From NCBI GenBank assembly GCA_963920765.1, contig OY987243.1, positions 13,268,001 through 13,332,000 of the forward strand: 64,000 bases of DNA. Reading direction: 5' to 3'. Below, piece after piece: positions 6,825 through 45,160 of this stretch (the stretch's first letter is position 1; each line of letters starts with the position of its first letter). A model generated the notes under the pieces. It did no database searches. It worked only from the letters and a program-made list of their open reading frames with translations, and had not been told where the DNA came from. This DNA comes from Ulota crispa. Its lineage: Eukaryota > Streptophyta > Bryopsida > Orthotrichales > Orthotrichaceae. A program made the position numbers and the translations under genes.

Positions 6825-9800
6825 AGTGAGCTAACAAAAATGCACCCATTTCAAATAGTTGGTTGGAATTGGAGATAGAGTAGAAAGAGCAGGACCTTTG
6901 TTGTTATGTAAAACTTTTGTTGTAGGTGCTATTGAATTTTCCGCCGAAGAAGACTTATTAGCATGCGCAAGGTATTAGTAAACATTTGGTTATTGGCACT
7001 CTATGTAATGCACTCATTTCTAACATTGATGAGATGAGCTAGTCTAGACATTTTTAAAAAGCTCAAGAGATGGGGTTAAGTAGAAAAAGAACAAGCAATA
7101 AACAACTAAACTAGAACAATTGCATAAAAAGTACACAACAATTGCAGAAGTAACTGAGTCAGTTTGTAGTTGATGTAAAGTAGGTGCTTAGTCTTGTAGT
7201 TGTTATTTAGTTGATGTAAAGTCAATTTACAGTTGAGTAGTTGTTTAGCAATGGCAATGATCTAGTTATTTTCATGACCAAATTTGAAGATGAAAGTTTG
7301 AAAAATATCTTACAAGTGGCAAAATAGTTCAATTAAAAAGAAGAAAAGCATTGCATCTACAATACAACCACATAAATATAGTCCCTAATTTGAAAGAACC
7401 AAATGTAGCACTTGAGCTTTAATTAACAACTATAGAACAATTAAAAAACCACTCATTAATGTGCACACTTTCCAACCAAAAAGAAATGGTATTGGGAGCT
7501 GCAACAAAGGCAGCCCAAATATAAAGTTTATTAATCATTTAATTTAATTCTCTCAAGAATCTTTTTATAGAAATATTCTAGTAGTAAAGAAAGAGTCGTT
7601 TATTCATACAACTCACATACAACTCAAAGTCAAAGATGTCAAACTGCTTTGATCATCTAATCATGAACCCAAAATTGTTCATTCCAAAATGTGCATAATA
7701 GACCTCATCCCTTGAGTCAAATAAACAACTGTGCACTACAACTGCTACTACTTCATCCATGACCATAGTCGCTTTGTTGTTGTTGTGCTGTAGTTTAGGA
7801 CAATAAGTTGTTTGCTATTAGTGAGATTTTCCAACATTTTCTTCTAGTGTTATAATTGCTTTGCTCCTAAATTTTTGACATGGCTTTAAAATAATTAGCA
7901 TCATTGTAATGGGTTTGGGCTCTTTATAAATAATGAAGGACAGGGCATAATAATGAGAATTATAATTTTTTTAATTGTACAATAGCCTTGCCAAATTTTT
8001 ATAAAAAATCTACACTTTATGAGAAATATTTAAAATTATTAAAGGTTTATGTAATATATCCAATGTTTGTTGTATCTCAAAGTATCCCATGTTTGTTGTG
8101 TGTCAAAGTATCTAGTGCTTGCTATATTTAGCTATAGCTTAGATGTATAGGCTTAATCAATACACATACTGAGTTGTTAACGACTTGACGCGTGGAGGAT
8201 AAACAACAAAAAGTAGATTGAAAATTGTTGATGAGATTGCCTAGGGCGGAATGATGGATGAGAAAACTTTCTCTTGGAAGCTTCAATTTAGGATTACTCT
8301 AAGATTTAAGTATGCAACATTTACATGCAAGCTTAGGGGTTTTCATTGCATGCTTTTTGTTTTCTTTCACTTTTTGGTTGGAAATAGTTAAAATTTATGT
8401 TTGAAACATTTGAACTTTCTATTTGAGACTAGTTTTTGCTTGGCAACAACTTCAATTTGGAAGTAGAAATTGCTTGAATGTACTTGGTGTCCACAAGCAC
8501 TCCTTGTTTAACACTACCATAAAAATGTCACTCTTGTTTTGTATAGTACATTAGATTTTGCATGTGTGTTATTCCAAAAAGAATTTCATTGTGATTTGAT
8601 CAGGTATATGAAAATTTCTTTTTGTCATTGTGTATTTGTAATGAACATAGGGTATACAAAAATGTCACAAGAGCCTTTTTTGAATGAAGCCTAAGATACA
8701 CAAAAAATTTGGTATTTGGAAATTTAGGTGGATATAGCCCTATATAAATCAATTTTTGTTACCTACATAGCCTACATCTTATAAGGGCTTGAACGCATGG
8801 TACCCACAAATACCCTATATAGTGCACTCCCCATGCACAAAGTAGTTTAGCTGTAGGTACAAGCCTAAATTCCCATTTGTCCCCCATGGGGCAATGGTCC
8901 TTTAGGAGTTAAAACTTCATTTCTTGTCATTTTTTAGTTTTCTCATGCCAAAAAACCTAAGTGCTCAAAACTTTTGGGAATAATCTTGAGAATACTCAAA
9001 CTTGCTTGAGAAGTTTTTTTATATGTCCTCCCTAACGTATATTTTCCATTTCACATGCTCGTTGAATTTCCAACTTGTAAATGAGTTTCTTATGTAAATT
9101 TAGCATGAAGCAAAGTTTTGCTTATAAGAAGAAATGTTTTGAAAATAGCGTTGCAACAGTTACTTAGGTTTGTAGATTATGACTTTTAGCTCAAATATAT
9201 TAAAGAAAAAGGTCTATTTATTCTTCAAAATGTCTTTTTATATATGGATGGATTGAAATATGATTTGTAAGAAGTGTTTAGTTGACTAAAAAATGACACA
9301 AAGGTTTATGTTTTGTAAGAAATTCGAGTAATTTTTAATGTAGAGATGACTTGTGAAGTTTAGTTTGGAGCTTAATTCTTAATCTTTTTCAAAAGAACAA
9401 TCTTGTAGGTATAGATTGCTTGCTACACTAGCCATTTTGTTATAATTCCATTTCAAGTACTCCGTGATTAATAATTCAGTAGTCCTGTTATCATTGTAAT
9501 TCTCTTTAACATGTTTATAAGTTTTACTCTTTGGAAGTTTTTTAATAAGTTTTTAACCCTTATCTTTAGTGTACTTTAAATTTGCACAAGTTGTGCAATG
9601 CATGTTTTACAATAGAATTTCTAATGGACGAATTGGTACCTTTAAAATGGTTGAAAAATACCTTGATGTTCTATTCAAATTTTTATTAATTTGCATTTTG
9701 TATGATGATTTATTTTAAAAGTATGGGAGATGGCACATCAACAACATAAGAAAGAAACCCTATTATTATAATTATCAACTAATCTATAGTTCAAACTTTG

Positions 9801-12861: not shown

Positions 12862-14503
12862 CCCTTTAAGGACCATGTGACCATATTTTGGTCGCTAGGA
12901 GTAGTTTTTAGCCTATATATCAAAATCGCTCAACAATTTGGAAATTGGTTTTGAAGTACGCTTGTGATCACAAGAATTTTGCATCCATCTAATAAAATAA
13001 CAATGGAACCGGATATGTGAGTTGATTAATAATGGTGTTTATACGACATGGCCTCAAAATACCTATCCGTTTTTTGTCAAAGATGGATCAAAGCAACAAC
13101 ACAATACATCAAGTATGCAAGAAGAATGTCAAACTTCAATTGCAAAATCTTAAAAAATTCAAATTGCTTAAGAAATACACTTGCATTGTTTTCCTATACG
13201 GTAGTAGTATAATTGTAGTGTTTAAAGATCTACTAAAATGGTGTTGTCATTTCATTTTAAAAATTTTGACATCCTACATTGAAGGCCAATTCTTGATTGC
13301 TTTCACCAATCGGATTTTCCATAACAATTATCAAATTTCCTGGAGAGCATTTTAAGGGTAGTCAAGAAAGTGGGATTTTAGACCCTTTTTGTCCACTTAG
13401 CTATGCTTTGTGATTGCTATTTTTATCTATTTTGTGTGAAACTAGCCTTATTGGAAAGGTGGGAACCTTGGCTTTCTAGAAATGTAAGGCTTTTTTCAAT
13501 CAAAGCTTGCATGAAGAGTTAACATCCTACACCACACAAGCATGAAAAACTAGAGATTCTCCACATACGAGTCACTCAATCATTATAATATTTCACCTCC
13601 AACAGTAGATCTAGCTGAAATTTTGGTACTTTCCAACAAACAAGGTGTACTTCCCATTTGTACGGTTGGATTATTGAAAATGGGTCCATATCTAATTCAA
13701 CTACACATGTACACTTGTCATCCTTGATTTTAGTGGGTTTTTTGAAAATGGGTGTGGTCCTTAACCCTGTAATGCCGGGGAAGCCATTTCTTGGCGTTTG
13801 AACAAATGTCCAAGGATGTGCATGAACAGAAAAATTGATTTTTCATCCATAGTTTTGTTTTTGATCTATCATGTTAGGTTATGATGAGTTTCTAATTGGA
13901 TTTGTAGTCTTACTAGTGTTTCTTTTTATGTAGATGAGAAGTTAGTAAAAAAAATAAATCACAACATATGTTGTTTTAGTGTATTTTGGGAAGTTGTTGC
14001 TCTTTGCTCTAAATCTGAAATTTCTTTACAAAAATTATATTTTTTGAATTTGAGCCCAACTTATAAAATGAAGGCCATCTACTCTAGTTTCTTCTCCACT
14101 TTGAATTTTGGAAAATTTCCTAATATTGAATATGTCATTGCTATTTGAACTTTGAATGTATTTTCAATGTCTATTAATTTTTAATTATAGAATGACATGG
14201 AAATGGAGTTTACACCATGATGTTTGTTATTGTGATATACACACACCGTGAAATTTTCATATTTTTTAGATTTTCTATTTGATGTGATTTTTCTTCACTT
14301 TTTCTTCAAATATTCTCAAAAAAATCAAATTTTCTCAAAAAAATCTGAAATTTTTGTGAAGTAAAGAAGACGTGTAATTCCATCTCTAAAAATTAAATAC
14401 AAATGTTTTCATACATATGTAATTGCAAAATGGTAACAAATTGGATGATGGACAGTCACACTTGGATCAGCGGTCATGGGTCCGTCATTTAGGAGTTAAA
14501 GGG
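12862..14503. mobile_element. TTAA-flanked miniature transposon, family E (piggyBac-like), interrupted
   Basis: Flanked by TTAA at 12858-12861 and 14504-14507. The left terminus is CCCTTTAAGGACCA. The right terminus reads GGTCC-TTAA ... AGGG, whose reverse complement after removal of the nested element is CCCTTTAAGGACC, a perfect inverted match. Without the 13765-14499 insert the element is about 907 bp. It has no transposase frame. CCC-starting ends plus a TTAA target duplication are typical of piggyBac-type elements; Kolobok elements also use TTAA and remain an alternative. Confidence 0.8.
13765..14495. mobile_element. TTAA-flanked miniature transposon, family F, nested inside family E
   Basis: 731 bp inserted at the TTAA lying inside the right terminal repeat of the surrounding element, giving TTAA at 13761-13764 and 14496-14499. 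Left end CCCTGTAATGCCGG; right end, reverse-complemented, CTCCTAAATGACGG (11 of 14 identical). The remaining AGGG of the host element follows directly and then the host's own TTAA. No coding capacity is visible. Confidence 0.8.
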
Positions 14504-14767
14504 TTAACCCCATACCTTGAGCTGGCCCACGTGGCAAGTTCCTTTACCAGTGCCAACTGCCAAGGGAGCGGATGCCCTAAAAAAAAGTTTGAAATTGTTC
14601 AGAATCTGCGTAAATCATGAAAGATTCTGTAGTTGAATACAGAACGTTCCTTTGCACTGGCTCTCCAGAAATGGTGCCTCCACTGCTCCTGGGATATCCG
14701 TAGATATAAGAGAAAATTTTATGGATACCTCTGAAGTTTGCCATATTTGTATAGATAGTTGTGATAA

Positions 14768-21688: not shown

Positions 21689-21692
21689 TTAA

Positions 21693-22613
21693 CCTTGAAA
21701 GGACCAAGCCCTTTTTTCTGCCAAAATCACTAAAAACTCCACTTCTAGGGGATGAGTAATAAGGTACTTTTCTTCTTTTTTTGGAAATCCAACTATAGGA
21801 TCATACCTTAGACTAGAAGAGGTACTTGTGGGGAAAAAATCAAGTCATTCTAGATGGAGAGGAGGCAGATATTTACATTTGAAATGAGAAAAAAAGTTTT
21901 TTTCCCTACAGTTAGTAAATTTCAAAAGCCTTTGACCACCTTTACATGAAAAATTGCTCTACCAAAAGTTGAGCTTTTATTTTTCCATGTAGGAGATCAA
22001 GTTAGTATATGTGAGAATTTTCAAATCAATTGGAACTATACAACACATGGAAAAAAAATAGTAAGTAAAAGAAATAAAGAATGAGTCAAAACACTAAATT
22101 GTTAAGAATTTAATTATTGAAATGAAAAATGCAAATCCCAATGGTGATAATGTTGTAACAAATAATCTACTCCCTTGGATTTGATTTTTTTTCCAAAAGT
22201 TTGAAGATTGAGTGAAATGAATGACTTCAAAGTTTATTTTAGAGTAGATAATTCATAATTGCGTGCAAACAAAAACTCCTCATAACTTTCATCTCATTGA
22301 TCAAAATTGAATGATTCAAATCTTCCAACGTATAAAAAAAATCTAAAGAACCAATTCTAGAATTTTATTTTTAAAAAGTGAAATTTTTAAAGAATTTTTT
22401 TGTGCTGCCCAAATGGGCAGTCCTCCCCAAATTTTCATAAATTCATTCATAACTTCTTTGTCAAATGTCAAAATGAAAAAAAAAAATGCCCACATAGGTT
22501 TTTGAATTCCCCACCTTCAATAAAAGTTTCAAAAAATTACAAAAAATAACTTATCCAAAGGTACATGCCCAAAGTACCACTTGTCCCAGGGGGGACAGTT
22601 GCTCATTTAGGGG
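21693..22613. mobile_element. TTAA-flanked miniature transposon, family A/B (921 bp)
   Basis: TTAA at 21689-21692 and 22614-22617. Ends CCTTGAAAGGACCAAG and, reverse-complemented, CCCCTAAATGAGC. Interior 21990-22190 is clearly similar to 44545-44735 (shared 'cactaaattgttaagaat' and 'atcccaatggt' blocks), so the two are copies of one family. It has no coding frame. 22618-23416 is AT-rich with nothing recognised. Confidence 0.75.
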
Positions 22614-23416
22614 TTAAACTAGTCTAATACATTTATAGATCAAGTTTGTTAGGCTCATAAAGTTTGGTAAGTCAATTTTTTTGTACGTTTAGTGTGGATT
22701 TGACCACTTGGTTTGAAATTTGAGATCAAGGAGTCTCGAGATAGATTGGCTCTTTTACTTTTTTTTAATGTTTTTTTTTTTTTTTTCTAAAGGGAAAACT
22801 AAAGGGTTTCAAACAAAGCCATAAACTTAGTACTTTAATAAAATTATAATTATGAGTATTTGGATGTGGACAATTGGCTCTTCACCTACAATAGGAAAGT
22901 CTTTTTGAACTTGAGGTGAAGTATGATAAAATTCATTCAAATGTCACAAGACAAGGCATCAAAATCAATTGGTAGATTTTCTAAATTCATACCTTGATCT
23001 CCAATGTCTTAGTTTTGATCACTTTGCAATGAGTGCTAATGTACTTTTGAATATTCTTTAATGATTATCTATTGATTATCTATTGATCATGTGGATTTAT
23101 TAAGCATGATATTGAGTACACTTTGCATTTTAAGTATCTCACAATTTTGAAATATAACAATGAGTGTTATTCTACATTTGAACATTCTCCAATAAATATT
23201 TATGTACTAGGTAAATTCACTACCAAAATTTTGGGCACACCTTGCACTTGGGTCCTTTGACGATTGCAGCATTCACTATGTAAAGTCTTAAACTTAAAAA
23301 TGCTTATGAGGATGTTTTGATGGAAAAACATGTTTATTCATCCAATTCTGTCAAAGGAGTTGCTTAACTATATTTTTAGTAATTAAGAATCTATTTGCTA
23401 TTGCAAACAAAAGAAA

Positions 23417-43795: not shown

Positions 43796-44243
43796 ACCCA
43801 CTTTAGCCACTACAAAGATTACGGGGCTTCAAACATGAAATCTGGCCCTCGAATTTCTCACCTCACAGGATCTCCGGCACCAGTGAATTGTTTTAGTTCC
43901 CTCATATGCGTAAAGTCTAAGACACTTGTGAGTTTGCAGAAATTTCTACGAGAGAAGTTTTGGGGTTTGAGGACGTACGTGCATGAGCCATGCAAAGCCA
44001 TGAAGATGAGTTTTTGAAATTCACACCTCACGTGCATCAAGTTAGGAGTGAAGTTCAGAGGTGAGTCACGGCGAGGTTCACGAGTGAATTCACGGAGGTG
44101 AATCGTAATGTGAATCACCTCAAAACGTTGATGTTTGAAGCCCCCTATTGGCCTGTTCCCTAGCCTTGCAAACCAACTTTCATTTTCTCCATTCAAGGAA
44201 AGCAATGGAGCTGCTCTTAGGTGATAGTAGAGTTGTGTTTTAA
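43796..44243. other. Intergenic DNA, no supported gene
   Basis: Left boundary of the spacer between the duplication arms. It has several GTGAATTCAC-like segments (44030-44110) loosely similar to 3820-4090. No gene is recognised. Confidence 0.4.
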
Positions 44244-45156
44244 CCCCTCAAGGACCAAGCAAAGTTTTCACCAAAAACTCTTCAAAACTGCTAGTTTTAG
44301 AGCATCAACCAAATTTGAAAAAAAAAAACATTTTTATGCATATGTGACTGTCGGATCTTCTAAAAGAATAGTTATAGAAGATGTGGAAAAAATTTCAGAG
44401 TTTTCCACCACATGGATTGGAAGTTAGAATGGTTTGAAAATTCAAAAACGTCTTGTGAAAAATCGGGCAGCTATCCTTCAGAAGGTGAAATTCCTAAGGA
44501 AAAAAGGCCATGTGGGTGGTGCTTCTCTAAATTCCTTATTCCACCTCAATAAAGTACATGTCAAAAAAGTTTCAAATCATTTGGAGTTATATAACATATG
44601 GAAAAAAATTAGTAAGTAAAAAGTAGAGAATGATTCAAAACACTAAATTGTTAAGAATATAATCATGGAAATGAAAAATGCCAATCCCAATGGTCATAAT
44701 GTTGTCATAAGCAATCTTCATCCTTTGATTTCGTTTTTTTTTCCAAAATGTTGAAAATTGAGTAAAATAATGGACTTCAAAGTTAATTTTGGAGTAGAGA
44801 ATCCATAATTGCTCACAAACAAAAAATCCTCATAACTTTCATCTTGTTGATCCAAACGGAATGATTCAAAGCTTCCTACATTCAAATAAATCTCCTAAAC
44901 CAACTTAAAATTTTTGTTTTTGAAAAAAGTGATTTCTAAAAATCTGCCTAGGCTGCCTGACAAACAAAAAAAACAACATATTAGGCCATAACTTTTTACT
45001 CATAATTCAAAATGTCATGAAATTTAGTGCATATGAAAGATAAACCTCTTCCCCACATTCTATTAAAATTTCAGCCTAAAACATGAAAAGCTCCAATCAC
45101 GTGTACCTACCCAAAATCGCTATGTTTCTAAAACAGGGAGTCTAGTCCTTTAGGGG
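44244..45156. mobile_element. TTAA-flanked miniature transposon, family A/B (913 bp)
   Basis: TTAA at 44240-44243 and 45157-45160. Ends CCCCTCAAGGACCA and, reverse-complemented, CCCCTAAAGGACTA (12 of 14 identical). Interior is similar to 21693-22613. It shares its right TTAA with the next element. Confidence 0.82.
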
Positions 45157-45160
45157 TTAA

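Follow-up and report, generated by a model that had tools for sequence, protein, structure and literature searches.

The 64,000-nucleotide stretch of DNA analysed here (the window) contains a 731-bp element bounded by TTAA, situated inside the right terminal repeat of a 907-bp element that is likewise bounded by TTAA. We interpret the two, with a probability of about 0.92, as members of two different non-autonomous (MITE-like) piggyBac families, nested one in the other and mobilized in trans by transposases that this genome encodes, the inner one coming from the lineage of transposase locus L008 and the outer most likely from that of L005 and L089. The formation of this arrangement would have begun with the insertion of the outer element at a genomic TTAA, followed by insertion of the inner element into a TTAA four bases inside the right terminal repeat of the outer (GGTCC-TTAA-AGGG), duplicating that TTAA. 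Movement of both families would have been supplied in trans by piggyBac transposases of the same genome, and the split end would lock the outer element in place until the inner one leaves by clean excision.

Anatomy of the nested elements

The nested elements, including the letters and coordinates given for them in the preliminary description, were exact on direct reading (Table 1). TGGTCC ends at 13760 and is followed by the target TTAA at 13761-13764. Deletion of the inner element with one TTAA, which had been said to restore a perfect inverted end, indeed leaves an outer element of 907 bp between TTAAs whose 14-bp inverted ends are perfect and identical (CCCTTTAAGGACCA and CCCTTTAAGGACCA).

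Table 1. Positions of the nested elements, their palindromes and the transposase-bearing elements with two clear ends
Feature	Position	Strand	Evidence
Left target-site copy of outer element, TTAA	12858..12861	+	Read directly
Outer non-autonomous element, 899 bp up to interruption	12862..13760	+	Starts CCCTTTAAGGACCA
Left terminal repeat of outer element	12862-12875	+	Sequence read
Outer palindrome, bp 16-34 from tip, centre bp 25	12877..12895	+	6/7 scored pairs complementary
TGGTCC (inner part of right terminal repeat of outer element) and target TTAA	13755..13764	+	
Inner non-autonomous element, 731 bp, assigned to L008 piggyBac lineage	13765..14495	+	CCCTGTAATGCCGG...ATTTAGGAG
Inner left-end palindrome, centre bp 25	13783..13795	+	5/7 scored pairs
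Right target-site copy of inner element, TTAA	14496..14499	+	Read directly
AGGG, outermost 4 bases of right end of outer element	14500..14503	+	Read directly
Right target-site copy of outer element, TTAA	14504..14507	+	Read directly
e1, transposase-bearing element, 5.0 kb	C3:13130262-13135288		TTAA-CC ends both sides
e6, transposase-bearing element, 5.1 kb	C2:15046195-15051296		TTAA-CC ends both sides
L008, transposase-bearing element, 5.3 kb	C9:16419462-16424749		TTAA-CC ends both sides
L005, transposase-bearing element, 5.6 kb	C8:446266-451851		TTAA-CC ends both sides

No transposase was present among the six open reading frames of at least 150 aa in the window, which comprise a NifU-like piece, an aminotransferase class IV piece and four frames without a Pfam family. 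Searches of the window against Rfam at gathering scores and against a plasmid collection (near mode) gave no match.

The right TTAA of the outer element runs into CCCCATACCTTGAGCT (14504-14540), a third TTAA-CCCC start. A proposed likeness between this start and a complement-strand start at 7079 was rejected, being confined to the first bases and giving no blastn match. Two further TTAA-CC...GG-TTAA intervals in the window, 21689-22617 (929 bp) and 44240-45160 (921 bp), are probably other families of the same TTAA-CC kind.

Copy families of the two elements

The genome-wide search for TTAA-bounded elements that had been suggested earlier showed both families to be multicopy, with copies ending at TTAA. 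There are at least 44 genome matches for the outer family (40 scored of 2413 first-look candidates) and at least 41 for the inner (40 scored of 230), the window copy included in each; both are lower bounds, with 40 candidates scored per family. TTAA flanks were counted at 30 loci for each family, again including the window copy. Among the outer loci, an exact TTAA was present at 23 left and 21 right ends and a one-mismatch TTAA at four more per side, the remaining ends (three left, five right) being interrupted, lost or not placed by the pattern. Among the inner loci, the exact TTAA was present at 24 left ends, 23 right ends and both ends of 20. Most ends are exact (21-24 of 30 loci per side), as the earlier reading requires of other copies. 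Two loci, L010 and L041, carry the same non-TTAA tetramer on both sides (TTAT and TGAA, respectively), perhaps as non-canonical targets.

The genome contains 669 exact occurrences of the end GGTCCTTAAAGGGTTAA and 0 of its reversed control. The outer tips are CCCTTTAAGGACC at both ends, a CC[C/T]T-type start, and the inner tips, of the same type, are CCCTGTAAYGCC at the left and, in most copies, CCCCTAAATG at the right. The inner right end reads ATTTAGGGG-TTAA in most other copies, whereas the window copy has ATTTAGGAG-TTAA. In the outer copies L023, L035 and L038 the right end is GGTCGTTAAAGGG or GGTTGTTAAAGGG.

piggyBac transposases in the assembly

The piggyBac profile DDE_Tnp_1_7, named earlier among the searches to be made, has at least 120 matches above the Pfam cut-off in the assembly and none in 14 control genomes. 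These matches lie at about 116 places, four copies being split into two matches each. Two pairs of transposase matches, C7:18203169-18204302 with C7:18223004-18224137 and C2:36765124-36766008 with C2:36779670-36780554, score equally and lie in opposite orientations some 14-20 kb from each other, an arrangement seen in inverted duplications.

Flanks were extended at ten transposase loci (e1, e6, L002, L003, L004, L005, L007, L008, L069 and L089), and in four of them (e1, e6, L008 and L005) a TTAA-CC end is clear on each side. L089 has its right end, its left end being split, and L002, L003, L004, L007 and L069 showed no clear end pair around the transposase within the stretches fetched. L069 was considered as an autonomous outer element and rejected, the right-end pattern there being that of an ordinary outer copy. 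Among the elements examined, those with TTAA-CCC ends encode DDE_Tnp_1_7, and no autonomous element with a non-piggyBac transposase, the case that would have counted against the earlier assignment, was encountered.

L089 contains an open 476-aa frame that matches DDE_Tnp_1_7 at 8e-60, the T. ni transposase 6x67 at 4e-20 and the piggyBat transposase 9c0f at 6e-17, and its transposase is 67.5% identical to that of L005 over 434 aa. At the positions of the three catalytic aspartates of piggyBac transposase, the first two catalytic motifs of L089 align with 6x67, and the alignment ends before the third. This third motif, G[VI]D..DQ, is present in e6, L003, L004, L005, L007 and L008, is GVN in L089 and L069, and was not picked up in e1 and L002. 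No copy showed all three motifs intact. The transposase matches scored in L005 and L008 contain stop codons, and L089 has GVN in place of GVD, so that the enzymes of these loci may not be functional. Cysteine-rich stretches of 51-62 aa follow the DDE domain in three of eight loci (e1, L003 and L004), as judged by eye; Pfam gave no match to that of e1, nor to the region beyond the DDE domain of L089.

Probable transposase lineages of the two elements

The reading of TTAA plus CCC ends as a piggyBac signature is supported by matches between the tips of both elements and those of transposase-bearing elements, strong for the inner and short for the outer. Starting at the TTAA, the inner element aligns in register with L008 over 90 columns (72%, E 2.4e-9) and, by this resemblance, is assigned to the L008 piggyBac lineage. 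The outer left tip matches the L005 left end over 37 columns (76%) and the L005 right end over 20 columns (95%), both from the TTAA on; these matches are short and weak by E-value (0.01-0.06), and carry weight because they are in register at the tips. L005 and the outer-family consensus also share, by eye, the motif CGACC-N7-GGTCG with its centre at bp 25. The outer element thus most likely belongs to the L005/L089 lineage.

Recurrent insertion into terminal TTAAs

The ends of these piggyBac elements are preferred insertion targets, compared with their internal TTAAs. The right-end TTAA of the outer family is interrupted by CCC sequence in 29 of 187 cases (GGGTGTGGTCCTTAACCC, 29; intact GGGTGTGGTCCTTAAAGG, 158), compared with 3 of 330 (327 intact) at an internal TTAA of the same family (Fisher P 6e-11, calculated over copies that are not independent). 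A second internal site, which has the TTTAAGG context found at the end, was interrupted 10 times, or about 2% on an estimated intact number of about 476, obtained by scaling 327 in the ratio 16 to 11 given by exact matches at 30 loci. The end is therefore hit in about 15% of exact right ends and the two internal TTAAs in about 1-2%, an excess of roughly 7- to 17-fold. A shorter junction, GGTCCTTAACCC, occurs 237 times compared with 7 for its reversed control.

The cause of this end hot spot that we tentatively regard as likeliest, though at less than even odds, is tethering, in which transposase bound at an end would bring a second transposon to the adjacent TTAA. It is possible, although rather doubtful, that the excess instead reflects survivorship, with intact copies leaving by clean excision and split-end copies remaining locked, accumulating and so appearing enriched. 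Excision of piggyBac is seamless according to the available part of PMC7351741, and a split end would presumably block it. The interrupted copies are, however, not visibly older, their identity to the window copy being 92% in L011, 91% in L015 and L017 and 88% in L032, within the range of the matches listed. These four copies, picked for their resemblance to the window, carry little weight.

A local base preference around TTAA as the only cause is unlikely. C precedes TTAA at 44% of 63 insertion flanks of the two families, compared with 18% (P 1.4e-6), the end site has a C on one side, and the internal site sharing the TTTAAGG context was the one interrupted 10 times. Yet the first internal site, GC-TTAA-GA, offers the preferred base on both strands and was hit only in the 3 of 330 cases above, and the second was hit in only about 2% if its estimated intact number holds.

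Both sides of the interruptions were also compared. The far-junction pattern GTTAAAGGGTTAA has 972 matches compared with 48 for its reversed control, but it is confounded by those outer copies that end in GGTCGTTAAAGGG, and only paired junctions were therefore used, counted in part of chromosome 1 among the matches listed. For 12 of the 37 near-side junctions there, a correctly oriented, exact far side was present; for 25 none was found. The controls gave 2 for the wrong strand and 1 for the upstream side. Five of the 30 outer loci have a split end (the window, L011, L015, L017 and L032); the far side is restored in the window, L011 and L017, is not restored in L032, and was not seen in L015 within the flank examined. 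The transposase-bearing element L089 has such an insertion too: its left-end TTAA is where an outer-type sequence (83% over 429 columns) stops, and about 0.9 kb upstream TTAA-CTCT-TTAA is followed by an outer-type left tip (81 bases read); we infer that both outer-type tips are those of one copy, across the approximately 430 bases between them. In L092 (1-81), GGCGTTACAGACC-TTAA lies just before this split left end and resembles the terminus of an inner-family copy.

These junctions make it very improbable that no insertion occurred and that the inner TTAA merely served the outer element as an alternative end beside another element. L032, L015 and the 25 chromosome-1 junctions without an exact far side would fit such an origin, but the lost bases and TTAA are found on the far side in the window, L011, L017 and L089, the 12 exact far sides stand against 2 and 1 in the controls, and the AGGG-TTAA remainder refutes it for the window copy.

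A palindrome near the left ends

A subterminal palindrome is a candidate binding site for transposase. In the outer family its consensus is GCGACC-N7-GGTCGC, and the window copy has GTGACC-N7-GGTCGC. At left ends, the number of complementary pairs out of seven at centre bp 25 is 6 in the outer element, 5 in the inner, 6 in e1, 6 in L008, 5 in L005 and 1 in e6, so that the palindrome is present in five of the six elements checked and absent from e6. At right ends, there are 4 pairs in e1, 2 in e6 and 0 of 7 in the inner element, L008, L005 and L089. At least five of seven pairs at bp 25 are found in 22 of 137 non-redundant TTAA-CCYY ends, compared with 14 of 597 other TTAAs. The mean profile has a peak at bp 25 (z 2.9), but those at centres 14, 15 and 15.5 are equally high, and the palindrome claim therefore rests on individual left ends and not on a single peak.

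In T. ni piggyBac, cysteine-rich domains bind a palindrome that spans bp 17-33 of the left end and is likewise centred on bp 25, as described in the accessible text of PMC7351741. The bp-25 palindrome described here is thus a putative binding site for such a domain. A more speculative reading, which we consider possible but not probable, is that ends with their own TTAA act as landing pads, where transposase bound at bp 25 would draw in other families, split the end and lock the element already there, even one that bears a transposase, until the newcomer makes a clean exit.

Comparison with known systems

The tip of T. ni piggyBac is CCC, as here. T. ni piggyBac and Myotis piggyBat also share with the present elements the TTAA target and a DDE transposase, that of the present genome being homologous to 6x67 and 9c0f. 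The present system differs from both in its plant-type genome, in combining transposase-bearing elements of 5-6 kb with many short non-autonomous families, and in terminal repeats that themselves contain TTAA. A study of piggyBac elements as targets of piggyBac integration appears similar from its title; it reportedly concerns an element inserting into itself, whereas two different families are involved here. piggyBat likewise has a palindrome just inside its tip, of different sequence, in the portion of PMC11707139 consulted.

The nearest published parallel found in the literature searched is that of the coral CMITEs, which, as described in part of PMC2872659, are non-autonomous, duplicate TTAA and have CC[C/T]T tips, and one of which, CMITE-IN, has a CMITE at a TTAA inside another mobile unit. 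CMITEs differ in being about 100 bp long, in having a conserved core and in a target lying between two direct repeats, whereas the target here lies in a terminal repeat and is hit repeatedly. Xenopus T2-MITEs, of the Kolobok superfamily, share the TTAA target and the abundance of MITEs, but have AGGRR tips and another transposase (PMC6004289, in the part available). Kolobok identity for both elements, which TTAA duplication alone would fit as well as it fits piggyBac, has next to no probability and was rejected, since the tips reported for that superfamily in the same excerpt of PMC6004289 are AG/RR against CCC here, and the inner tip matches the DDE_Tnp_1_7-encoding element L008.

piggyBac in a plant-type genome

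Most plants, and some algae, have TTTAGGG as their telomere repeat. This sequence is repeated at two chromosome ends of the assembly, two other ends being N throughout, and a plant-type host therefore fits. Work on piggyBac has, to our knowledge, been confined almost entirely to animals and a few protists. Among the titles listed in a literature search, with subscription papers mostly outside its scope, none dealt with amplification of piggyBac in mosses or other land plants; a moss paper considered as a piggyBac report (PMC10619864) was set aside, the word in its abstract passage being piggybacking. A table in a fern genome paper lists 1230 PiggyBac copies at 0.00% (PMC6890710, that table), and a passage of PMC10813416 says that piggyBac has been isolated from plants, so that finding it in plants is in itself no novelty.

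With at least 120 transposase matches, TTAA-CCC elements of 5-6 kb and large non-autonomous families, this plant-type genome would allow the superfamily to be studied outside animals. The bp-25 palindrome makes the transposase-site model of the moth element testable in it, and the recurrent splitting of terminal repeats provides natural data on target choice and on the mutual limitation of families. If ends carrying their own TTAA do serve as landing pads, competing transposon families would hold one another in check by a built-in and reversible brake.
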